Assembly: GCF_013004695.1 (NCBI RefSeq)
Contig: NZ_JABEMG010000039.1
Span: 1-34,504, forward strand
Origin: Promicromonospora citrea
GTDB lineage: Bacteria; Actinomycetota; Actinomycetes; Actinomycetales; Cellulomonadaceae
Length of the DNA: 34,504 nt
Direction: 5' to 3'
How positions within the stretch are numbered: position 1 is the first letter of the stretch; each line of letters begins with the position of its first letter. The notes beneath the pieces were generated by a model. The model had not been told where the DNA came from. It made no database searches and worked only from the letters and a program-made list of their open reading frames with translations. This document shows positions 25,515 through 34,504 of this stretch, one piece after another. A program made the position numbers and the translations under genes.

Positions 25515-26271
25515 GCACCAGCGACCCGAGCAGCACGCACCGGGAACGGCGCAGGGCGGACCCGGCGTCCCGGCCCTCGGCCGGACCGCGACCCTGGTGG
25601 AGGACCTGCTCCTGCTCCTGTTCCAACCGGGCGGCTCACGGGCGGGAGGTGGCGGGTCGATCGCCGGCGAGCCGACCCTCTACTGGGTGCTCGGGGGCGC
25701 CGTGCTCGCGGACCTCGCACTCGGCGGCCACGTCAGGACCAGCACCGGGCGGCTCGGCGCGCTGCAGGTCGAGGCCGTCGCCGACCGGCCGCCGTCGGAT
25801 CCGCTGCTACGCACCACCTGGGCGTACGTCGCCGAGAAGCCGAGGTGCGTCCAGACGGCCCTCGCCGCGACCGGCCCGGCGCTACGGGAGCCGGTGCTCG
25901 ATCGTCTCGTCGAGCGCGGCGACCTGCACCGGCGGTCGCGCAAGGCGCTCGGTCTCTTCGCGTCGTCGGTGCTCTCGCTGGGCGACACGGGCCGCCGCGC
26001 CGCGCTCCTGGCCGACGTCCGCGCGGTGCTCGTCGACCGAGCCGAGCTGACCGAGCGCACAGCGGCGCTTGCCGCGCTGCTGCACGGCAGCGGGACGCTG
26101 CCGCAGTTCGATCCCGAGATCCCGTGGACGTCACCGGTCATCGCCCGCGCGGAGGAGCTCAAGGACGGCAGCTGGGGCGCCGGAGCCGCGGCGAAGGCCG
26201 TCGCGCGCACGGTCACCGCCACGATCGTGAACAACGTCGTCGTCGCGGCGGCGGTCCACCCCCGTGGCTGA
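25507..26271 (+). CDS. GPP34 (GOLPH3-like) family protein
   Basis: The 254-residue protein starts with an unstructured polar stretch, then LGRTATLVEDLLLLLFQPGG and YWVLGGAVLADLALGGHV, the classic opening helices of the GPP34 fold. It continues with a helical body (DRLVERGDLHRRSRKALGLF, TERTAALAALLHGSGTL) and ends with a hydrophobic helix VARTVTATIVNNVVVAAAV. In eukaryotes GPP34 proteins bind phosphatidylinositol-4-phosphate at the Golgi. In actinobacteria they are common but mostly without assigned function and probably associate with membranes. The ATG overlaps the merR-2 stop by eight bases and its own stop overlaps the esterase start in the same way. Confidence 0.85.
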   Translation: MTEHQRPEQHAPGTAQGGPGVPALGRTATLVEDLLLLLFQPGGSRAGGGGSIAGEPTLYWVLGGAVLADLALGGHVRTSTGRLGALQVEAVADRPPSDPLLRTTWAYVAEKPRCVQTALAATGPALREPVLDRLVERGDLHRRSRKALGLFASSVLSLGDTGRRAALLADVRAVLVDRAELTERTAALAALLHGSGTLPQFDPEIPWTSPVIARAEELKDGSWGAGAAAKAVARTVTATIVNNVVVAAAVHPRG

Positions 26272-28105
26272 CACGACGCGCGCCACACAGCGCTCGGCCG
26301 GGTTCTGGGTGCCGTTCGCCCTGCTGGTCGCGCTGGTGCTGGTCCTCGGTCGGCTGAACGACACCCCGTGGCGGGGCTGGGCCCTGGTCGCCGGGTCGGT
26401 GGCGGCGCTCTGGCTGACGGCGCCCTGGTGGTGGCGGGGCGGCGTCCTGCTGCGGACAGCGGGGTGGCTGCTGGCGGGCGTGCTGGCGGCGGGCACCGTC
26501 GTGGTCGCCCACCCCGGGCCACAGGTGCGCGTGGCCGGGGGCGCGGAGCGGGCGCCGACGCAGCCGGTCGAGACGGCGCAGGGCCCTGTGAGCGGGGTGC
26601 GGAACGACGCGGGGACGGTCGAGATCTTCGCGGGCGTGCCCTATGCCGAGCCCCCGGTGGGCGAGCTGCGTTGGCGGGCGCCCCTGCCGCCCGCGCAGCG
26701 GTCCGGGCTGCTCGTCGCCGACCACTTCTCGGCGGTGCCGGTCCAGGGCACCACGACGTTCGCCACGAGGGCGCTGGCGCACGTGGTCGACATCCCGCTG
26801 GAGGGCACGTTCCTCAACCCCTACCCGGTCAGCGAGGACAGCCTCTACCTCAACGTCTGGCGGGCACCCCGGCCTGCCTCGGCCGCGCTGCCCGTGCTCG
26901 TGTACGTGCCCGGCGGCGGCTTCGCCACCGGATCGGGCGCCCTGCCCCTGTACGACGGCGAGGCGCTGGCCGCCACCGGTGAGGTGGTCGTGGTCACGAT
27001 CAACTACCGGCTGGGCGTCCTCGGCTTCCTCTCCCACCCGGACCTGGCCGACGAGTCCCCGTACGGCGCGTCGGGCAACTACGGGATCCTGGACCAGGTC
27101 GCCGCTCTGGAGTGGGTGCGGCAGAACATCGCGGCGTTCGGCGGCGACCCGAGCCGGGTCACGGTCGCGGGCGAGTCCGCGGGCGGCGAGAGCGTGTGCA
27201 TCCTCGGTGCCACGCCCCTGGCCGAAGGGCTGATCGACGGCATCATCGGCAGCAGCGGCGCCTGCATGGGCACGGACGGCGACACCGAGGACGGGGACCA
27301 GAGCGACACGCGGTCGGTCGCCGAGGACGCGGGCGTGCGCCTCGCACGGGAGCTGGGCGCCGAGAGCCTCGCCGCGCTGCGGGACCTGCCCGCCCACCAG
27401 GTGGTCGAGGCCGCGGCGACGACGGGGCCGCACTGGCGGCCGTCCGTTGACGGGTACGTCCTCCCGCGCAGCCCCGCAGAGGTCTATGCGGCGGGCGACC
27501 AGCACGACGTGCCGATGCTGCTGGGCAGCAACGCGGACGAGGACTTGCTGATCCGTGCCTTCCCGCCCGGTCCCGTGACGCCCGGGGAGTACCGTGCGAC
27601 GGCACGGGAGGACCACGGCGAGGACATCGAGACCTACCTCGGCCTGTACCCCGGCGAGACGCGGGGGCAGGTGCTGGACTCGCTCCTGCAGGCCCAGACC
27701 GACCGGGTCTTCACCCGGGCGATGTACCGGTGGGCACGACTGTCCGCCCGCCCCGGCCGGTCCCCGGTCTACCTGTACTTCTTCACGCACACGCCGCCCG
27801 ACGCGGGCCTGGAGGAGTACGGTGCGTACCACGGGGCGGAGGTGATGTACGCCTTCGACAACCTCGGCGTGGACGGTGACGCCGACTACGGCCCGACCGA
27901 CCTCCGGCTGCGGGACCAGCTCAGCGGCTACTGGCTCAGCTTCGTCCGGACCGGGGACCCCAACGCGCCGGGCCTGCCGGTGTGGTCCGAGGTCGCCCGG
28001 AACCCGGAGCTCGTCATGGAGCTCGGCGTCCACACCAGGATGACGGCCCGCCCGCGACCGGCGGCGATCGACCACTGGATGCGGTACGAGGGCCCGATCG
28101 CCTGA
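26264..28105 (+). CDS. Membrane-anchored type-B carboxylesterase
   Basis: The 613-residue protein joins an N-terminal membrane part, with three hydrophobic segments (about 13-29, 37-54 and 60-82), to a full type-B carboxylesterase domain from about residue 100. Visible there are FAGVPYAEPPVGELRW, SEDSLYLNVW, the oxyanion motif YVPGGGFATGS, the nucleophile elbow GESAGGES with Ser305, the acid Glu426 in GSNADEDLL, and His523 in GAYHGAEVMY. It should hydrolyse carboxylic esters at the outer face of the membrane. Para-nitrobenzyl-esterase-like actinobacterial enzymes usually have a simple signal peptide or none, so the three-segment anchor is unusual. The GTG start overlaps the GPP34 stop by eight bases, showing coupled translation. 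Confidence 0.9.
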   Translation: MADTTRATQRSAGFWVPFALLVALVLVLGRLNDTPWRGWALVAGSVAALWLTAPWWWRGGVLLRTAGWLLAGVLAAGTVVVAHPGPQVRVAGGAERAPTQPVETAQGPVSGVRNDAGTVEIFAGVPYAEPPVGELRWRAPLPPAQRSGLLVADHFSAVPVQGTTTFATRALAHVVDIPLEGTFLNPYPVSEDSLYLNVWRAPRPASAALPVLVYVPGGGFATGSGALPLYDGEALAATGEVVVVTINYRLGVLGFLSHPDLADESPYGASGNYGILDQVAALEWVRQNIAAFGGDPSRVTVAGESAGGESVCILGATPLAEGLIDGIIGSSGACMGTDGDTEDGDQSDTRSVAEDAGVRLARELGAESLAALRDLPAHQVVEAAATTGPHWRPSVDGYVLPRSPAEVYAAGDQHDVPMLLGSNADEDLLIRAFPPGPVTPGEYRATAREDHGEDIETYLGLYPGETRGQVLDSLLQAQTDRVFTRAMYRWARLSARPGRSPVYLYFFTHTPPDAGLEEYGAYHGAEVMYAFDNLGVDGDADYGPTDLRLRDQLSGYWLSFVRTGDPNAPGLPVWSEVARNPELVMELGVHTRMTARPRPAAIDHWMRYEGPIA

Positions 28106-28120
28106 GTCGGGGGGCTCGCG

Positions 28121-28930
28121 TCATCCCGCGGCGTCGGACGACAGCAGGCGTATACCGCCGGACGCACCCACGACCAGGACCCACGCGGTCGCGACCAGCG
28201 CCCCGTCCGCGGGGCCGAGCACGGGGTCGGCCGGTGCCCAGAGCAGCGCGGCGGCCCGGTCGGGCAGCCAGCGGGCGTGCTCGGTGAGCGAGCCGAGCAG
28301 GGGCGAGACGATCAGGACGAGGCCGAGCGTGGTGACGAGGGCGGGGACGAGCTCCCGGAGCAGCAGCGCGACCGCGTGGGCGAGCACGCCCACCAGCACG
28401 AGGAACACCGCAGCACCCGCGAGCCGCCCCAGGTCCTCGCCGGACACCACCACAGCGCCAGGCCCTGCCCACCTCGGCTCCGTCTCGCCCGGCACGCCCC
28501 ACGCGGGGGCGGTCGCCGCCATCGCGCTGCCCACCACTGCGCCCCCCACCATCGCGCACACCGTGCCCGCCGCCGTGAACACCAGCGCGACCAGCGCGGC
28601 AAGCGTCTTGGCCGCTACCAGCACCGCGCGCCGGGGGACGGCGGCGAACGTGGTCCGCAGCTGGGTGCCCGCCGACTCGTGCGCGACCGGGAGCACGCCC
28701 ACCAGCACCATGCCCGCCTGGACGAACCGGACCACCTCCGTCACGACGCCGGCGGCGGTGGGCGACGCGCCACCCGCGACGGCGGAGGACGCCGCGAGGG
28801 CGGCGACGGTGCCACCGGCCACCACCGTGGCCGCGGCCGTCAGGCCGACGGCGGGCAGGGTGCGCAGCTTGCTCAGCTCGGCGGCGGTGGTCCGGGCGAG
28901 GTGCACCGCCGTCACCTGCCCCGGCCTCAC
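28121..28930 (-). CDS. ABC transporter permease, second subunit
   Basis: The 269-residue membrane protein has about six hydrophobic segments (for example VGLTAAATVVAGGTVAALAA, TLAALVALVFTAAGTVCAMV, AAVFLVLVGVLAHAVALLL, VTTLGLVLIVSPLLGS). Its start resembles ABC-2-type permeases that follow lantibiotic-immunity-like ATPases (HLARTTAAELSKLRTLPAVG). The GTG start at 28930 overlaps the stop of the first permease (GTGA). It is the last gene of a three-gene operon and converges on the esterase gene. Substrate is unknown; such permease pairs often export peptides or membrane-active drugs. Confidence 0.83.
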   Translation of the reverse strand: MRPGQVTAVHLARTTAAELSKLRTLPAVGLTAAATVVAGGTVAALAASSAVAGGASPTAAGVVTEVVRFVQAGMVLVGVLPVAHESAGTQLRTTFAAVPRRAVLVAAKTLAALVALVFTAAGTVCAMVGGAVVGSAMAATAPAWGVPGETEPRWAGPGAVVVSGEDLGRLAGAAVFLVLVGVLAHAVALLLRELVPALVTTLGLVLIVSPLLGSLTEHARWLPDRAAALLWAPADPVLGPADGALVATAWVLVVGASGGIRLLSSDAAG

Positions 28931-29733
28931 GCGTCCCTCCGCGCGAGGACGAGACCGGCCACGGCGAGCAGGGCGGCGGTCCACGCCGTCATCACCCAGG
29001 CGCCCGTGACCGCGTCCGGTCCGCCGGGCACCGTGGTGAGCCCGCCGTACAGACGTCGGCCGGCGAGGTCGGGCAGCCAGTACGCCCACGGCGTCACACG
29101 GCTCAGCAGCAGCGAGAACGACACGAGCGAGCCGTTCGCGACGAGGAGCACGAGCGGGAGGGTCCCGCCGCGGGTCAGGACCGTGACCGCGAGGGCGATG
29201 AGCGCGGTCAGCGTCCAGTAGAGGGCCGCGCCGGCCGTCCGGAGCACGGCCTCCCGCAGGCCCACCGCCTCGGCGGCCGCGTCGCCGAGGACGAGCGTCG
29301 CGACCGCACGGCACGCCCCGATCGCCAGGACGGCCGTCGTGGCGACCACCAGCGCGACGACGAGCGCCTTGGCGCCCAGCACCCCGAGCCTGCCGGGCGC
29401 CGCCGTGAGCGTCGCCGTCACCTGACGACCCCCGCCCGCGTCGGCGCTGCTCGCGGCGTACTCGCTGCTCATCGCCACGACACCGAGCACGACGGCACCC
29501 GCCGCACCGAGCGGCGCGGCGGTGTACGCGATGTCGAACGCCGACGGGACGGGACCCGCTCCGGCGGCACCGGCGCCGAGCGCGCCCCGGGCACCGACCG
29601 CGTTGAGCGCCGCGAGACCCGCCGACCCGGCCACCGTGCCCAGCACGGCCGCCCGCACGGCGGGCAGCGTCACCGCCTTGCGGAGCTCTGCGGCGGCCAG
29701 GTCGCGGAACCGCACCCCGGCGCGCGGCGTCAT
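28927..29733 (-). CDS. ABC transporter permease, first subunit
   Basis: The 268-residue membrane protein opens with RFRDLAAAELRKAVTLPAVR, as in its neighbour, followed by about six hydrophobic segments (LGAAGAVVLGVVAMSSEYA, LGAKALVVALVVATTAVLAI, LYWTLTALIALAVTVL, TLPLVLLVANGSLVSFSLLL). The motif SSEYAASS at the end of span 2 is common in this ABC-2 permease type. The ATG overlaps the ATPase stop (ATGA), so the ATPase and two permeases are made in a coupled series. Sequence similarity between the two permeases suggests an old duplication and a heterodimeric channel. Confidence 0.85.
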   Translation of the reverse strand: MTPRAGVRFRDLAAAELRKAVTLPAVRAAVLGTVAGSAGLAALNAVGARGALGAGAAGAGPVPSAFDIAYTAAPLGAAGAVVLGVVAMSSEYAASSADAGGGRQVTATLTAAPGRLGVLGAKALVVALVVATTAVLAIGACRAVATLVLGDAAAEAVGLREAVLRTAGAALYWTLTALIALAVTVLTRGGTLPLVLLVANGSLVSFSLLLSRVTPWAYWLPDLAGRRLYGGLTTVPGGPDAVTGAWVMTAWTAALLAVAGLVLARRDA

Positions 29734-30449
29734 CGCGCCACCTCGCGCGAGGCGGTGAGCGCGAAGAAGGCGTCCTCCAGCGAGCGGTACCCCGCCGTGA
29801 CCCGGTCCAGCGGCCCCGCGGCCACGATCCTGCCGTCCGCGATGACCACGAGGTCGTCGGCCACACCGGCCACCTCGCCCATGAGGTGGCTGGACAGCAG
29901 CACCGTGCCGCCGGCGTCCGCGTGCGCCCGCAGCAGGTCGCGGATCCAGCGGATACCGTCCGGGTCCAGCCCGTTGACCGGCTCGTCGAGCACCAGCACC
30001 TCCGGCTCGCCCAGCAGGGCTGCGGCCAGCCCGAGGCGCTGACCGGTCCCGAGCGACAGGCGGCCGACCCGGACCCGGGCCGCCTCGGCGAGGCCGACCT
30101 GGGCGAGCACCTCGTCGACCCGACGGACGGGGATGCCGTGGGTGCGGGCGACCCACCGCAGGTGGTCGCGCGCGGTCCGGGAGCGGTGGGCTCCTGGCCC
30201 GTCGAGCATCGACCCCACCGTGCGCAGCGGGTACCGCAGCCGACGGTAGGGCACCCCGGCCACGCGAGCGGTGCCGCCGTCCGGCCGGTCGAGGCCGAGC
30301 AGGATGCGCAGGGTGGAGGACTTGCCGGCGCCGTTGGGTCCCAGGAAGGCGGTGACCTGCCCCGGCTCGGCCGTGAACGAGACCCGGTCGAGCACGGTCC
30401 GGGGGCCTCGGCGCTTGGTGAGGTCGTCGATCTGGATCATGGCACCCAT
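29730..30449 (-). CDS. ABC transporter ATPase
   Basis: This nucleotide-binding subunit (239 residues) has Walker A GPNGAGKSST (about 36-45), a Q-loop region VGSMLDGPGAH, the signature LSLGTGQRLGLA, Walker B VLVLDEPVNGLDPDG and the H-loop SSHLMGEV. The form with SMLDGPGAH after strand 4 is typical of actinobacterial CcmA/BcrA-like exporters. The start is uncertain: MGAM at 30449 or the inner ATG at 30440; neither has a clear Shine-Dalgarno site. It heads a coupled operon with two permeases and is divergent from a histidine kinase gene, the usual arrangement in which the two-component system controls the exporter. Confidence 0.92.
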   Translation of the reverse strand: MGAMIQIDDLTKRRGPRTVLDRVSFTAEPGQVTAFLGPNGAGKSSTLRILLGLDRPDGGTARVAGVPYRRLRYPLRTVGSMLDGPGAHRSRTARDHLRWVARTHGIPVRRVDEVLAQVGLAEAARVRVGRLSLGTGQRLGLAAALLGEPEVLVLDEPVNGLDPDGIRWIRDLLRAHADAGGTVLLSSHLMGEVAGVADDLVVIADGRIVAAGPLDRVTAGYRSLEDAFFALTASREVAR

Positions 30450-30475
30450 CCCAGCTGCCGCGGCGGGTCGCGTCA

Positions 30476-30492
30476 TCGGACCCTGGACCGGA
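30476..30492. promoter_or_regulatory. Candidate response-regulator site, copy 1
   Basis: TCGGACC-CT-GGaCCGgA repeats the palindrome found 46 bases downstream with small changes. It lies in the divergent region, 27 bases upstream of the ATPase start. Confidence 0.5.
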
Positions 30493-30521
30493 CCTGGCCG
30501 CCCCGCTACGACCGGGGTCCG

Positions 30522-30537
30522 TCGGACCCTGGTCCGA
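30522..30537. promoter_or_regulatory. Candidate response-regulator site, copy 2
   Basis: TCGGACC-CT-GGTCCGA is a perfect 7-2-7 palindrome between the exporter and kinase genes. With copy 1 it forms a direct repeat of an operator, as expected for a NarL-type regulator acting on the divergent exporter operon and perhaps its own gene. Confidence 0.6.
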
Positions 30538-30559
30538 TGTGCCCTCGGTCGCGCCGCCC

Positions 30560-30565
30560 TAGACT
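30560..30565 (+). promoter_or_regulatory. -10 box of a leaderless promoter for the histidine kinase
   Basis: TAGACT ends seven bases before the GTG at 30573 and so decides the kinase start. Palindrome copy 2 lies 23 bases further upstream, next to the -35 region. Confidence 0.48.
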
Positions 30566-30572
30566 CGGCGGC

Positions 30573-31451
30573 GTGGACCCGACAGCCCGGCCCGTGCTGC
30601 GCTCGCGCGCGTGGGTGGTCGCCGTCGTCGTGCTCACGCTGGTCGTGCTGACGCTCGCCGGCGCGGGCGGCAGGCAGCCCGTCGCGGCCTCGGTCGCGGT
30701 CGTGGCCGCGTCGGCCACGGCGCTCGGCGCCGTCGGCTGGGCCGTCGTCCGCACCGGGCGCCAGCGCCGCGCGCACGAGGCGGCGCTCACCGTCTGGGCC
30801 GCGGAGCGCGCCGCGCACGGAGAACGCCTCCGCATCGCCCGTGACCTGCACGACCTCGCCTCCCACGGGCTCGGCGCCATCACGGTGCGGGCCGCCGCAG
30901 CCCGCACCGCGACCGGGCCGGGCAGCGCGCAGGAGCACGCGCGGGCGCTCGCGGACATCGAGCAGGCGGGCCGGGCCGCCACGACCGAGCTGCGCCGGAT
31001 GCTCTCCGTGCTGCGCGCGCCGGGCGGGACCGCTCCGCTCCGGCCGGCGGACACCCTCGCGGACCTGTCGCGCATCGTGGGGTCCGCGCGCGCCGGCGGC
31101 CTCACGGTGGAGCTCGCCACCGAGGGGGTGACCGAGCCTGCCGACCTCTCCGCCGGTGTGCAGCTCACCGCGTGCGCCGTCGTCCGGGAGGGGCTCGCGA
31201 ACGCGGCCCGGCACGCCGGGCCCACGCGCGCCCGCGTGACCCTGCGACGCGAGGGGGACGGCCTGGTCGTGACCGTGGCGGACGACGGGCCCGTCCCCGG
31301 GTGGCAACCGCACGCCGGTGCCGGGCAGGGCCTGCGGGGCCTGCGCGACCGGGTGGCGGCGGTCGGCGGCACGCTGGACGTGCGGATCGGTCGGGCAGGC
31401 TCCCGGCTGCTGGCCCGGCTGCCGGACGGCGCACCGGAGGACCGGGCATGA
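30573..31451 (+). CDS. NarL/DesK-type sensor histidine kinase
   Basis: The 292-residue protein has two membrane spans (about 13-30 and 38-58) with a very short outer loop. A dimerisation/phosphoacceptor helix of the HisKA_3 type follows, with His93 in ERLRIARDLHDLASHGLG, and then a HATPase domain (N box EGLANAARHAG, G1 VADDGPVPGW, G2 GQGLRGLRDRV). With almost no extracellular part it belongs to the intramembrane-sensing class, often linked to cell-envelope stress or bacitracin-like drugs. The GTG start is supported by the leaderless promoter; the open frame extends into the ATPase gene and cannot be coding there. Its stop overlaps the regulator start (ATGA). Confidence 0.92.
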   Translation: MDPTARPVLRSRAWVVAVVVLTLVVLTLAGAGGRQPVAASVAVVAASATALGAVGWAVVRTGRQRRAHEAALTVWAAERAAHGERLRIARDLHDLASHGLGAITVRAAAARTATGPGSAQEHARALADIEQAGRAATTELRRMLSVLRAPGGTAPLRPADTLADLSRIVGSARAGGLTVELATEGVTEPADLSAGVQLTACAVVREGLANAARHAGPTRARVTLRREGDGLVVTVADDGPVPGWQPHAGAGQGLRGLRDRVAAVGGTLDVRIGRAGSRLLARLPDGAPEDRA

Positions 31452-32137
31452 CCGGCCGCCCGAACAGCGCCGTCCGTGTGCTGGTCGTGGACGACCAGCC
31501 GCTCATCCGGCACAGCCTGCGCCTCGTCGTCGGCGGTGCCGCGGACCTCGCCGTGGTCGGCGAGGCCGGCACCGGACGGGAGGCGGTCGAGCGGGCCCTG
31601 GAGCTGCGGCCGGACGTGGTGCTCATGGACATCCGGATGACCGACGGCGACGGCATCGAGGCGACGCGGCAGATCGCCGCACGGGCCGAGCTGGGCGGCA
31701 CCCGGGTCCTGGTGCTCAGCATGTTCGAGCTGGACGAGTACGTCCATGCCGCACTGCGCGCGGGTGCGAGCGGGTTCCTGCTCAAGGACGCCGAGCCGGA
31801 CCGGCTCGTCGACGCGGTCCGCCGCACGCACGCGGGCGAGTCCCTGTTCGCGCCGAGCATCCTCACCCGGCTGGTCGAGCACTACCTGGACCGGGGTCCG
31901 ACCCACGCGGGCGCGGCCGGGACGCCACCGGGCCTCACGGCGCGGGAGACCGAGGTGCTGCTGCACGTCGGCAAGGGGCTCTCGAACACGGAGATCGCGC
32001 GGACCCTCACCATCTCGATGGGAACCGTGAAGTCCCACGTCGGCAGCCTGCTGGCCAAGCTGCAGGCCCGGGACCGCGCCCAGCTCGTCATCGCGGCCTA
32101 CGAGCACGGGCTGGTCGGGCCCGCCGCCCGGCCGTGA
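31448..32137 (+). CDS. NarL/FixJ-family response regulator
   Basis: The 229-residue protein has a receiver domain (RVLVVDDQPLIRHSL; phosphoacceptor Asp61 in VVLMDIRMTDGDG; Lys in GFLLKDAEPD) and a C-terminal LuxR-type helix-turn-helix (LTARETEVLLHVGKGLSNTE, IARTLTISMGTVKSHVGSLL, about 163-202). It is phosphorylated by the kinase encoded just upstream, with which it is translationally coupled. The candidate palindromes at 30476 and 30522 in front of the exporter operon are its most likely binding sites. It converges with the CDGSH gene with only two bases between the stops. Confidence 0.95.
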   Translation: MTGRPNSAVRVLVVDDQPLIRHSLRLVVGGAADLAVVGEAGTGREAVERALELRPDVVLMDIRMTDGDGIEATRQIAARAELGGTRVLVLSMFELDEYVHAALRAGASGFLLKDAEPDRLVDAVRRTHAGESLFAPSILTRLVEHYLDRGPTHAGAAGTPPGLTARETEVLLHVGKGLSNTEIARTLTISMGTVKSHVGSLLAKLQARDRAQLVIAAYEHGLVGPAARP

Positions 32138-32139
32138 GG

Positions 32140-32391
32140 TCAGTCGTCGTCCGCCGCGAGCGTCTCGGGCGACCGGTACCCGTTCACCTTGTGCGTGCCG
32201 TCGCACCACGGCGCGATCGCCGTCCCGCCGCACCGGCACAGCGCGACGGTCGGCCGGTGGCGCGCCACCGGCTCCCCGTCGGGACCGAGGATCCGAGCCG
32301 GGCCGCGCACCAGGAGCGGCCCGTCGGGGCACGCGGTCACCGTGACGTCGGTCGGTCGCGGCGCCGCCGGGCGCGGGGCGGTCTCGGTCAT
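32140..32391 (-). CDS. CDGSH-type iron-sulfur protein
   Basis: The 83-residue protein has the CDGSH signature in its second half: LCRCGGTAIAPWCDGTHK, with Cys52, Cys54, Cys63 and His67 as the 3Cys-1His ligands of a redox-active 2Fe-2S cluster. The N-terminal part (VTACPDGPLLVRGPARILGP, DGEPVARHR) matches small actinobacterial CDGSH proteins. AGGAG five bases before the ATG at 32391 fixes the start, trimming the longer frame. Such proteins pass electrons or clusters. The gene is divergent from the diiron protein gene at 32562, 170 bases away, so it may be its redox partner. Confidence 0.93.
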   Translation of the reverse strand: MTETAPRPAAPRPTDVTVTACPDGPLLVRGPARILGPDGEPVARHRPTVALCRCGGTAIAPWCDGTHKVNGYRSPETLAADDD

Positions 32392-32561
32392 GAGGACTCC
32401 TGTCGGGGGACGGACGACTACCGACGACGGTAGGCCGGGGCGGGCCGCTCGCAAGCGGGCGGTGGCTCGGCACGCGTTGCGACCTGCGCGGATCCTGCGC
32501 ACCATGAGGTCGGCGTCAAGCAGGGGCGCGACACCCCATGGGCACGTCGAGGAGCCGGCAC

Positions 32562-33722
32562 ATGACTTCCACAGCGGTACGGGACAACGACTCCACGAGC
32601 GGTCTGGGCCGCCCGGAAGCGGCACAGCAGGCGGCACAGCCGACGGAGCAGCCGGGCCCACGCGCCCCGCGTCTGCCGGTGCCGCGGCCGCGCGGTCCGG
32701 TGAGCACGGCGCTGCTCGCCGCCCTCACCGCCGGTCCGCCCGACGGTGCGACGCCCACCCGCCTCGAGCCGGTGCGCGCGGCCGTCGTCGACGCGCTCGC
32801 CGCCGGACCCGACCTGCTGCGCGACGCCGACCTCCAGCTCACGCTGACGGTCCTGTACGAGCTGCACCACCGGGGGATCGACGGCGTCGACGACGCCTGG
32901 GAGTGGGAGCCCGACCTCCTCGCGGTGCGCAGGACCCTGGAGGGCCCGTTCGAGTCGGCGGTCCGTGCCCGGGCGGGGCAGCCCGTGGGCACCGCGACCG
33001 ACGCGGCGGGTGTGGCCACGGAGCTCTTCGCACTCGCGGCGGCCGACGGCCCGCCGCGCCTCGCGCGCCACGTCGCCAAGCGTGCGGACGCGACGCAGGT
33101 GCGCGAGCTGCTCGTGCTCAAGTCGCTCTACCAGCTCAAGGAGGCGGACGCCCACACGTGGGCCGTCCCGCGCCTCGGCGGAGCGCCCAAGGCCGCGCTC
33201 GTCGAGATCCAGGCCGACGAGTACGGCGGCGGCCAGGACGGACGCATGCACGCGCAGCTCTTCGCGCGCACGATGCGCGGCGCCGGGCTGGACGACACCT
33301 ACGGGCGGTACGTCGACGCCGTGCCGGTGGCTGTGCTCACCGCGCTCAACACGATGTCGCTGCTCGGGCTGCACCGGCGGCTCCGCGGCGCGATCGTCGG
33401 GCACCTGGCCGCGTTCGAGATGACCTCGTCCATCCCGAGCCGCCTGTACGGCGACGGGTTCCGGCGCCTGGGGTACGACGCGGCCACGACGGAGTACTTC
33501 GACGAGCACGTCGAGGCCGACGCCGTGCACGAGCAGATCGCGGGCCGCGACCTCGCGGGCCGCCTCGTCGAGCAGGAGCCCGCGCTGCGGGACGACGTGC
33601 TGTTCGGCGCCGCCGCCTGTCTCGCGATCGAGGGCGACGTCGGCGCGCACGCCCTCGAGTGCTGGAGCCGGGGTGAGTCCGCGCTGGTCGAGCCGCTCGA
33701 CGCGGCGGCGGACCGTGCCTGA
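32562..33722 (+). CDS. Heme-oxygenase-like diiron (HDO) protein
   Basis: The 386-residue protein has a Pro/Gln-rich tail (about 1-45) and a helical body. It matches the iron-containing redox enzyme family of the heme-oxygenase-like fold. Candidate iron ligands are Glu194 (helix with LVLKSLYQLKEADAH), Glu220 and His230 (ADEYGGGQDGRMHAQ), Glu286 (HLAAFEMTSS), His316, Asp320 and His323 (FDEHVEADAVHE). Their spacing (26, 10, 56, 30, 4, 3) is what I recall for the HDO enzyme SznF. HDO enzymes use O2 for N-oxygenation, C-C cleavage or desaturation; the substrate here is unknown. GAGGAG seven bases before the ATG at 32562 is preferred over an ATG at 32538. The stop overlaps the glycosyltransferase start by eight bases. 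Confidence 0.87.
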   Translation: MTSTAVRDNDSTSGLGRPEAAQQAAQPTEQPGPRAPRLPVPRPRGPVSTALLAALTAGPPDGATPTRLEPVRAAVVDALAAGPDLLRDADLQLTLTVLYELHHRGIDGVDDAWEWEPDLLAVRRTLEGPFESAVRARAGQPVGTATDAAGVATELFALAAADGPPRLARHVAKRADATQVRELLVLKSLYQLKEADAHTWAVPRLGGAPKAALVEIQADEYGGGQDGRMHAQLFARTMRGAGLDDTYGRYVDAVPVAVLTALNTMSLLGLHRRLRGAIVGHLAAFEMTSSIPSRLYGDGFRRLGYDAATTEYFDEHVEADAVHEQIAGRDLAGRLVEQEPALRDDVLFGAAACLAIEGDVGAHALECWSRGESALVEPLDAAADRA

Positions 33723-34504
33723 GGACCCGCGCACGCCGCCCGACGCCGACGTGGCGCCGGTCGGGACGGGCGCCACGTCGGCCACCGGCGCGGCCCCCGT
33801 GCCCGACACCGTCTACCTGCTCCCGCTGCGCCGTGCCGCCGTCGACCCGGAGGAGCTCGCCGAGCTGGCGTCCTACCTGCGCGACCTGGCCCGGCACCTG
33901 CCCGTCGTCGTCGCGGACGGGTCGCCGCCCGAGGTGCGGCAGTGGCACGCCGCGGCGTGGGGGGCGCGCGTGCGCAGCCTCGCCGTCCCGGACGTGCCCG
34001 CCGGGGCCAACGGCAAGGTCGTCGGTGTCCGCGCGGCGCTCGCGGCGACGACGGAGCCGCGCGTCGTGGTGGCCGACGACGACGTGCGGTACGACGTGGC
34101 CACGCTGCGGCGGGTGGCCACGGCGCTGGACCACGCGGACCTCGTCGAGCCGCAGAACGTGTTCGTGCCGAGCCCCTGGCACGCGCGCTGGGACACGGCG
34201 CGGACCCTGGTCAACCGGGCGTTCTGCCACGACTACGCCGGCACGGTCGCGTTCCGCCGTACGGCGCTGGGCGACGACGCCTACGACGCCGGGGTGCTCT
34301 TCGAGAACCTCGAGCTCGAGCGCACGGTGCTGGCGCGCGGCGGGCGCGTCGAGCACGTGCCGGACGTCGTGGTGCCGCGGCGGCCGCCGTCCGCCCGCCG
34401 GTTCGCCGAGCAGCGGGTGCGGCAGGCGTACGACTCGTTCGCCCAGCCGCCGCGGCTGCTCGCCGAGCTCGCCCTCGCGCCGTTGCTCGTCGCCGCGGCG
34501 GCGG
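33715..34504 (+). CDS. Family 2-type glycosyltransferase (partial, cut by window end)
   Basis: The frame starts at a GTG overlapping the diiron gene by eight bases and stays open to the right edge (263 residues seen). After about 30 disordered residues come a first strand (TVYLLPLRR), ARHLPVVVADGSPP, NGKVVGVRAALA and the metal/nucleotide motif VVVADDDVRYD (Asp121-123, a DxD-like element). Later come ENLELERTVLARGG and RRFAEQRVRQAYDS, which resemble the acceptor-side ED and QxxRW-like motifs of GT2 enzymes. The last residues (ELALAPLLVAAAA) begin a hydrophobic, probably membrane segment. Donor and acceptor cannot be read. Coupling to the diiron protein implies a shared pathway. Confidence 0.85.
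   Translation, partial: MPEDPRTPPDADVAPVGTGATSATGAAPVPDTVYLLPLRRAAVDPEELAELASYLRDLARHLPVVVADGSPPEVRQWHAAAWGARVRSLAVPDVPAGANGKVVGVRAALAATTEPRVVVADDDVRYDVATLRRVATALDHADLVEPQNVFVPSPWHARWDTARTLVNRAFCHDYAGTVAFRRTALGDDAYDAGVLFENLELERTVLARGGRVEHVPDVVVPRRPPSARRFAEQRVRQAYDSFAQPPRLLAELALAPLLVAAAA

Follow-up and report, generated by a model that had tools for sequence, protein, structure and literature searches.

A heme-oxygenase-like diiron oxygenase and a linked CDGSH-type iron-sulfur protein in Promicromonospora citrea and other Actinomycetota: a candidate two-component oxidising system

The right end of a contig of Promicromonospora citrea (NCBI RefSeq assembly GCF_013004695.1, contig NZ_JABEMG010000039.1) carries a gene for a heme-oxygenase-like diiron oxygenase (HDO), a divergent gene for a small CDGSH-type [2Fe-2S] protein, and the beginning of a glycosyltransferase (GT) gene. 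The whole contig of 34,504 nucleotides, which is contig C224 of genome G000 in our numbering and ends at 34504, is called the window below. We found that every HDO-positive genome sampled from the window's class also has a CDGSH gene, nearly always within 6 kb of the HDO gene, suggesting that the HDO is probably not a lone enzyme and that the two proteins form a new oxidising system of two components. Our best explanation, to which we give a probability of about 0.6, is that the HDO is a diiron oxygenase, perhaps an N-oxygenase, which is served by the CDGSH protein, is deployed under stress in some lineages, and is optionally accompanied by tailoring through a GT or a methyltransferase.

How HDOs obtain their electrons is largely an open question. 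According to a 2026 review, more than 10,000 HDOs are now on record and about a dozen have been validated (PMC13108848; this and the other papers are cited from excerpts), and the mangotoxin acetylenase MboA with its redox partner MboB was reported as possibly the first characterised pair of an HDO and a dedicated redox partner (PMC13185094). The pairing described here is of another kind. It was seen in 42 genomes of a single class, in 41 of them within 6 kb, and it comes with two alternative tailoring genes and, in some lineages, with a stress-regulon setting. The bacterial CDGSH family thereby gains a concrete candidate for a partner, and three SigF-dependent Mycobacterium smegmatis genes, a "methylase" and two conserved hypotheticals, become open to functional tests. 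Both domains are known; the pair itself is apparently undescribed, as no paper describing it was among the matches listed in the open-licence PMC literature.

Linkage of the CDGSH and HDO genes

The CDGSH protein of the window (83 amino acids; 32140..32391, minus strand) matched PF09360 with 56.4 bits (cut-off 29.5; E = 3.5e-15). It has the motif CRCGGTAIAPWCDGTH, with three cysteines and one histidine, which agrees with what we take to be the CDGSH/NEET motif, C-X-C-X2-(S/T)-X3-P-X-C-D-G-(S/A/T)-H. The spacing C-x-C-x(6)-P-x-C-x(3)-H was conserved in 134 of the 135 CDGSH matches from HDO neighbourhoods.

An HDO gene was present in 18 of 39 related genomes and in 63 of 396 genomes drawn from the phylum. 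The two draws were pooled and the genomes of the window's class (its own genome, the same order or family, and the same class) were compared. The CDGSH gene was found in 42 of 42 genomes with an HDO and in 0 of 32 without one (Fisher test, 1e-21, the genomes being related and not independent). A narrower control, with a CDGSH gene in 64 of 78 HDO-positive and 1 of 37 HDO-negative genomes (Fisher test, 3e-17), was biased and has been superseded by the full phylum draw; it was too lenient because these 37 genomes (21 relatives and 16 of 20 more, G040-G043 being left out) were nearly all close kin.

The sequence-only reading had taken the divergent CDGSH gene for a partner of the HDO, and the positions of the genes bear this out. 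When the relatives and the phylum draw were combined, 64 of 78 distinct HDO-positive genomes had a CDGSH gene, and in 56 of these 64 it lay within 6 kb of the HDO gene, with a median of 1031 nt between the two starts. The same was true of 44 of the 50 genomes that have a single CDGSH gene, and of 41 of the 42 HDO-positive genomes of the window's class, G314 being the sole exception. At the level of loci, the CDGSH gene was found in 77 of 80 named HDO neighbourhoods and in 58 of the 78 of the other set, which includes the window; the two sets share at least two loci (L034/L198 and L028/L192). Among 135 pairs, 95 were on the same strand (HDO first in 87, CDGSH first in 8), 26 were convergent and 14 divergent; the link persists across these arrangements. 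In two genomes with two HDO genes each (G143 and G334), every one of them had its adjoining CDGSH gene.

The pair was also seen on plasmids. Of 15 plasmid records with a tblastn match, five were examined. Four of them have an annotated CDGSH gene next to that of the HDO, and in the fifth, from Gordonia, the HDO is short and fragment-like and no CDGSH gene is annotated in the stretch. On a Curtobacterium plasmid an overlapping HDO-CDGSH pair stands alone. In an HDO tree of 106 rows (the set of 78 and every third named locus), one clade of 24 rows had CDGSH together with a methyltransferase in 20, and the large remainder is CDGSH-linked, with the GT coming and going.

Two TTGCGA elements face each other between the divergent genes of the window, and likewise in L021, L023 and L024, each followed after 16-17 nt by a -10-like hexamer. 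One would serve the CDGSH side (TTGCGA-N16-TACCGT; 32427..32454, minus strand) and the other the HDO side (TTGCGA-N17-CACCAT; 32477..32505, plus strand); L030 has the HDO element as well. This pattern was found upstream of 5 of 159 HDO and 4 of 135 CDGSH matches, in this genus only, and upstream of 3 of 927 other genes. The pairing of these putative promoter elements suggests that the CDGSH and HDO genes are co-expressed in the window's genus.

Predicted fold and metal ligands of the HDO

The HDO gene (32562..33722, plus strand) encodes 386 amino acids. Its start at 32562 fits the N-termini of relatives in L021, L022, L025, L027 and L030, and an alternative in-frame ATG lies at 32538. The only Pfam domain in the protein was PF14518 (E = 3e-57). 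An AlphaFold2 model made with 46 sequences had a mean predicted local distance difference test score of 89.6 and a predicted template modeling score of 0.87, residues 1-24 and 29-32 scoring below 50 in the former. In a Foldseek search, the top match of this model was HrmI, an L-lysine N-oxygenase (PDB 9nh9/9n1x), with E = 2.1e-10 for 9nh9 and template modeling scores of 0.70 (query) and 0.80 (target) over 328 alignment columns of a 337-residue target, at 20% identity. The next matches were SznF, an N-methyl-arginine N-oxygenase (PDB 6vzy; 5.9e-8), and RohS, the azomycin N-oxygenase (PDB 9pfx; 2.4e-7), and then FlcD and an unassigned Pseudomonas protein (3bjd). A profile search against PDB sequences returned SznF at 2.6e-13, HrmI at 3.7e-13, RohS at 1e-12 and BesC at 0.0042. 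By predicted fold and by profile, the HDO lies in the N-oxygenase branch. RohS, which has the HDO fold, is shorter and 21% identical to the window's protein, and belongs to a natural-product cluster. To our knowledge, HrmI has no CDGSH partner.

BesC and UndA had been named as comparison enzymes together with SznF, and both turned out to be distant, the nearest solved fold being that of HrmI. The Foldseek matches to PolF, CADD, BesC and UndA were much weaker (E = 1e-3 to 1e-2), and the score against the BesC equivalog model NF042919 of NCBIfam was 13.7 bits against a cut-off of 500. BesC/UndA-type chemistry as the nearest model was rejected on the equivalog score and on both searches.

The seven candidate ligands listed in the sequence-only reading are exactly placed in the translated open reading frame. 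They are E194 (codon 33141..33143), E220 (33219..33221), H230 (33249..33251) and E286 (33417..33419), followed by H316, D320 and H323 on one helix segment (33507..33530), all on the plus strand. In the profile-to-PDB alignment they align one to one with E189, E215, H225, E281, H311, D315 and H318 of SznF, which we take to be the metal ligands of that enzyme, E215 presumably being the additional carboxylate of a set of three histidines and four carboxylates (3H/4C). The equal spacing, which the earlier reading had pointed out, is not due to chance, since all seven residues align and 158 of 159 HDO homologues retain them. The fourth carboxylate of SznF-type N-oxygenases is present as E220, and the fold match and the ligand alignment together uphold the assignment to diiron-type HDOs with the SznF ligand set. 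A structure prediction with superposition on SznF had been proposed as a check. The predicted fold does match SznF, and the question whether the seven residues meet in one pocket was answered through the alignment with solved structures alone. A C-terminal cupin domain of the SznF type was absent from the HDO, in which PF14518 alone was found and which ends at residue 386. The 2026 review gives SznF the 3H/4C set and estimates that a quarter of HDOs have it (PMC13108848).

The homologue in which the ligands are not kept (L122:7077-8153) is without six of the seven and could be a pseudoenzyme or a misaligned distant relative.

The glycosyltransferase is accessory and locus-specific

The GT2/GT21-like gene (33715..34503, plus strand) starts with the GTG at 33715, and the HDO stop codon ends at 33722, which gives the eight-base overlap that had been noticed before. 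The gene is cut by the contig end. Its product scored 24.1 bits against PF13506 (cut-off 21.7) and the full homologue in L021 scored 35.7 bits; a DDD acidic motif is present, scores to GT2/GT21 models were obtained, and three of four GT homologues have at least two hydrophobic segments after residue 219. By sequence match, the missing C-terminus lies on a second contig of this genome, right at its beginning (G000:C25:5-241). We place C25 after C224 because the GT gene appears to be split between them. Beyond the GT end, the translations on C25 read as a lipase-like protein, regulators of the TetR and LacI types, an ABC transporter for sugars and ADP-ribosylglycohydrolases. The proposed extension past the right edge of the window thus recovered the end of the GT gene, and from this gene content no further pathway gene is apparent in those 9 kb.

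The sequence-only reading had expected CDGSH, HDO and GT2 genes to recur as a trio. Matches to hidden Markov models placed this GT in the neighbourhood of 15 HDOs in the set of 78 and of 29 in the set of 80. Both CDGSH and GT were near the HDO in 12 of 78, counting L093 with its CDGSH gene at a distance of 7 kb, and in 26 of 80. The three genes need not occur together, and the constant partner is the CDGSH gene; the GT as an obligate partner was rejected. Of the three named loci that lack CDGSH, two (L129 and L160) run into a contig edge just past the GT. All 15 GTs of the set of 78 are directly downstream of the HDO; among the 80 named loci, two lie upstream of it (L157 and L197) and three after the CDGSH gene (L174, L181 and L187).

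That the GT belongs to the locus, as had been proposed, held up. At E values up to 1e-20, it was found in 5 of the 39 related genomes, adjoining the HDO in each, and in none of the 21 HDO-negative genomes, and 13 of the 18 HDO-positive genomes were without it. In a single case (G014, L026:6331-7530), GT and CDGSH are encoded by one continuous reading frame, immediately after the HDO gene. In the window's family the GT was present in 3 of the 14 loci L021-L034 (L021, L026 and L034), without a pattern. These data show that the GT is an accessory yet locus-specific part. In L034 (10301-10938; same contig as L198), the GT was matched as two overlapping pieces in different frames, probably a frameshift or an assembly error.

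A methyltransferase and a stress setting in relatives

In a Streptomyces-like lineage (f18) and a presumed Mycobacterium-like lineage (f19), a HemK2/MTQ2-type methyltransferase replaces the GT; the labels are presumed from Streptomyces records with the same gene set and from M. smegmatis-like promoters. The methyltransferase scored 111 and 115 bits against TIGR00537 (cut-off 87). Matches to it occurred in 27 of the 78 loci (a few of them several kilobases off), the 15 GT loci not being among these, and in 0 of the 80 named loci.

SigF-like motifs were counted in the f19 loci. There were 53 of them in 14 HDO loci (three loci having none) and 1 in 8 control stretches of the same lineage, and 1 of 16 methyltransferase upstream regions had one. 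The strict SigF pattern was found in none of 9 HDO upstream regions of f18 and in none of 17 of the window's family. Nine stress-type families taken together were near 37 of 78 HDOs and 3 of 20 control stretches (5 of 10 in the controls' source genomes), a comparison that is biased upwards because the families were picked after the loci had been seen. On one plasmid, HDO and CDGSH genes are flanked by annotated SigB/SigF factors and STAS; on a Kitasatospora plasmid they occur with a SpoIIE phosphatase, STAS, CsbD and YbdK, and in a Streptomyces plasmid record near gas-vesicle genes.

Expression of what appear to be the M. smegmatis counterparts has been reported. Loss of sigF strongly lowered the expression of MSMEG_1771 (a methylase), MSMEG_1772 and MSMEG_1773, whose promoters are given at 29, 696 and 11 nt (PMC4694148). 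Levels of all three genes were higher in log-phase M. smegmatis that had been spray-dried repeatedly (PMC5445863), and MSMEG_1773 also appears in two further expression studies (PMC7390352, PMC5656591). The methyltransferase and HDO promoters of L084 resemble those printed for MSMEG_1771 and MSMEG_1773, and the distance from the methyltransferase start to the CDGSH start is 668 nt in L084 and 667 nt from the M. smegmatis table. We take MSMEG_1771-1773 to be the apparent orthologues of the methyltransferase, CDGSH and HDO genes because promoters and spacing agree in this way. Unlike the window, this locus has a methyltransferase and not a GT. In a draw of 396 genomes of that genus from a larger group, none had an exact match to the published 32-mer of the M. 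smegmatis HDO promoter.

Proposed mechanism and alternatives

In the mechanism that we favour, the HDO would bind two irons through three histidines and four carboxylates and activate O2. It would most probably oxygenate the nitrogen, or a nearby carbon, of an amine-containing substrate, like HrmI, SznF and RohS. The CDGSH protein would serve the HDO, most likely as electron donor and possibly also by loading or repairing a labile diiron site. The GT2 of the window and of a minority of lineages, or the HemK2/MTQ2-type methyltransferase, could be an optional tailoring enzyme for the substrate or the product. We know of no precedent for a NEET-type protein as the dedicated electron donor of a diiron oxygenase. 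The closest likeness is MboA-MboB, also an HDO with a dedicated iron-sulfur partner; MboB, however, is a reductase with flavin and Fe2S2 (PMC13185094), whereas the CDGSH partner is a small NEET-type protein, and the likeness of the partners here consists in co-inheritance only.

Several observations weigh against this explanation. Across the phylum the association is looser, CDGSH (PF09360) being present in 49 of 63 HDO-positive and 76 of 333 HDO-negative genomes (125 of 396 in all), and the tree contains a clade of 17 rows (96/93) without an adjacent CDGSH gene, although four of its genomes (G133, G198, G219 and G410) carry one elsewhere. Among the recurrent neighbour clusters viewed, no reductase for the CDGSH protein stood out, and no systematic search was made. 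HrmI, the nearest fold, is described as 3H/3C (PMC13108848) and so lacks part of the 3H/4C ligand set seen here. As for stress, a SigF motif was found upstream of 4 of 13 HDOs of f19, which is not clearly richer than the 25 of 170 of neighbouring genes; STAS, SigB or PP2C genes were near 18 of 78 HDOs, against 2 of 20 controls and 3 of 10 HDOs from the controls' source genomes, a modest difference. In the window, positions 26001-34504 had 0 SigF-like motifs on either strand, and the neighbours (a two-component system, an ABC transporter and an esterase) are not stress-specific.

A role of the CDGSH protein other than electron donation, as a donor of iron or of a [2Fe-2S] cluster to the HDO or as its redox or nitric oxide sensor, is in our view rather unlikely. 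Transfer of clusters and binding of nitric oxide are known activities of NEET proteins. Residues E315, E318 and E324, beside the ligands on the ligand helix, are E in 99, 93 and 98% of CDGSH-linked HDOs and mostly T, V and Q in the unlinked clade. This change could be an effect of the partner or of the second coordination sphere, and clade history alone could explain it. The diiron sites of HDOs have been described as labile and their alpha3 helix as flexible (PMC13108848), which would suit an iron donor; the requirement of MboA for MboB is a precedent for electron transfer (PMC13185094).

The main rival, which we consider rather unlikely, is a protective oxidase in which the HDO would lower damage by hydrogen peroxide or free iron with electrons from CDGSH, the GT and the methyltransferase being incidental. 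It is modelled on DtpC of Acinetobacter, a predicted HDO that is co-transcribed with katE, limits hydrogen peroxide in dried cells and needs its predicted metal ligands (PMC13232832). The SigF islands of f19, the response of MSMEG_1771-1773 to repeated spray-drying in log phase, a KatG-like gene in the CDGSH-linked locus L036, and HDO relatives that follow furA and katG (L123) or adjoin Ku/LigD genes (L091, L096 and L097) are all consistent with it. However, the HDOs of L123 and of the Ku loci have no adjacent CDGSH gene, and KatG was found in 2 of 157 HDO loci (L036 and L123) and Ku in 3 of 157, neither occurring in 20 controls. In the excerpts concerned, no gene was statistically significant in the stationary-phase spray-drying comparison (PMC5445863), and the window itself showed no link to stress. 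DtpC was compared by description, at the level of the superfamily; its partner is the catalase gene katE, CDGSH being unmentioned in the main text as excerpted (PMC13232832). A GT that is locus-specific and in one genome fused to CDGSH argues against an incidental gene and suggests a chemical role. A DtpC-like protective role and the oxygenase explanation are not mutually exclusive. More doubtful is a biosynthesis dedicated to a glycosylated N-oxygenated metabolite in the window's lineage. The N-oxygenase kin found by profile and Foldseek and the overlapping GT, specific to the locus and directly downstream of the HDO in 15 of 15 GT loci of the set of 78, would fit it, but no other biosynthetic gene was seen alongside, including on C25 past the contig break, and the GT is patternless in L021-L034, the combined CDGSH and GT label needing 14 changes on the tree. 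The sequence-only reading had proposed a small oxidative pathway with a glycosylated product. The oxygenase and GT locus stood, and glycosylation is not the only frame, given relatives with stress genes and with a methyltransferase instead. A broader form of the explanation that we favour would be a phylum-wide, CDGSH-dependent N-oxygenase module, in some lineages part of the general stress and desiccation response, that yields an N-oxygenated protectant or signal, methyl-capped in Streptomyces- and Mycobacterium-like lineages and glycosylated in others; in that full form we regard it as fairly improbable, and a stress role in the window's own organism would be an extrapolation from these relatives.

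Other observations

Some loci had further genes near the HDO. In L123 (6506-10497), the genes for a Fur-family regulator (furA), katG and the HDO run on one strand, reminiscent of dtpC-katE. In L091, L096 and L097 the Ku/LigD-like genes are immediately upstream of the HDO, and in L091 and L097 a DUF7218/Rho_N gene lies downstream. A dimethylargininase gene followed by an HDO gene was seen on a Kitasatospora plasmid (L227:4974-6888); as a clue to the substrate it was rejected, since it occurred in 0 of 157 other loci. A second, shorter HDO-like gene (about 268 amino acids) lies near the CDGSH gene in L023 (9876-10682) and L024 (6317-7126), with four shared neighbours, and L139 has a partial second HDO-like gene too.

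In the window, Rfam at gathering thresholds gave no match between 28000 and 34504. The perfect palindrome CTACCGACGACGGTAG (CTACCG-ACGA-CGGTAG; 32418-32433) overlaps the putative -10 element of the CDGSH gene and is not kept in the relatives L021, L023, L024 and L031. A histidine kinase gene (29886-31451) and a gene for a NarL/LuxR-type response regulator (31448-32137), both on the plus strand, face the CDGSH gene and end 2 bp from its stop codon. Related kinase/regulator pairs are also close to the HDO in L033 and L037.

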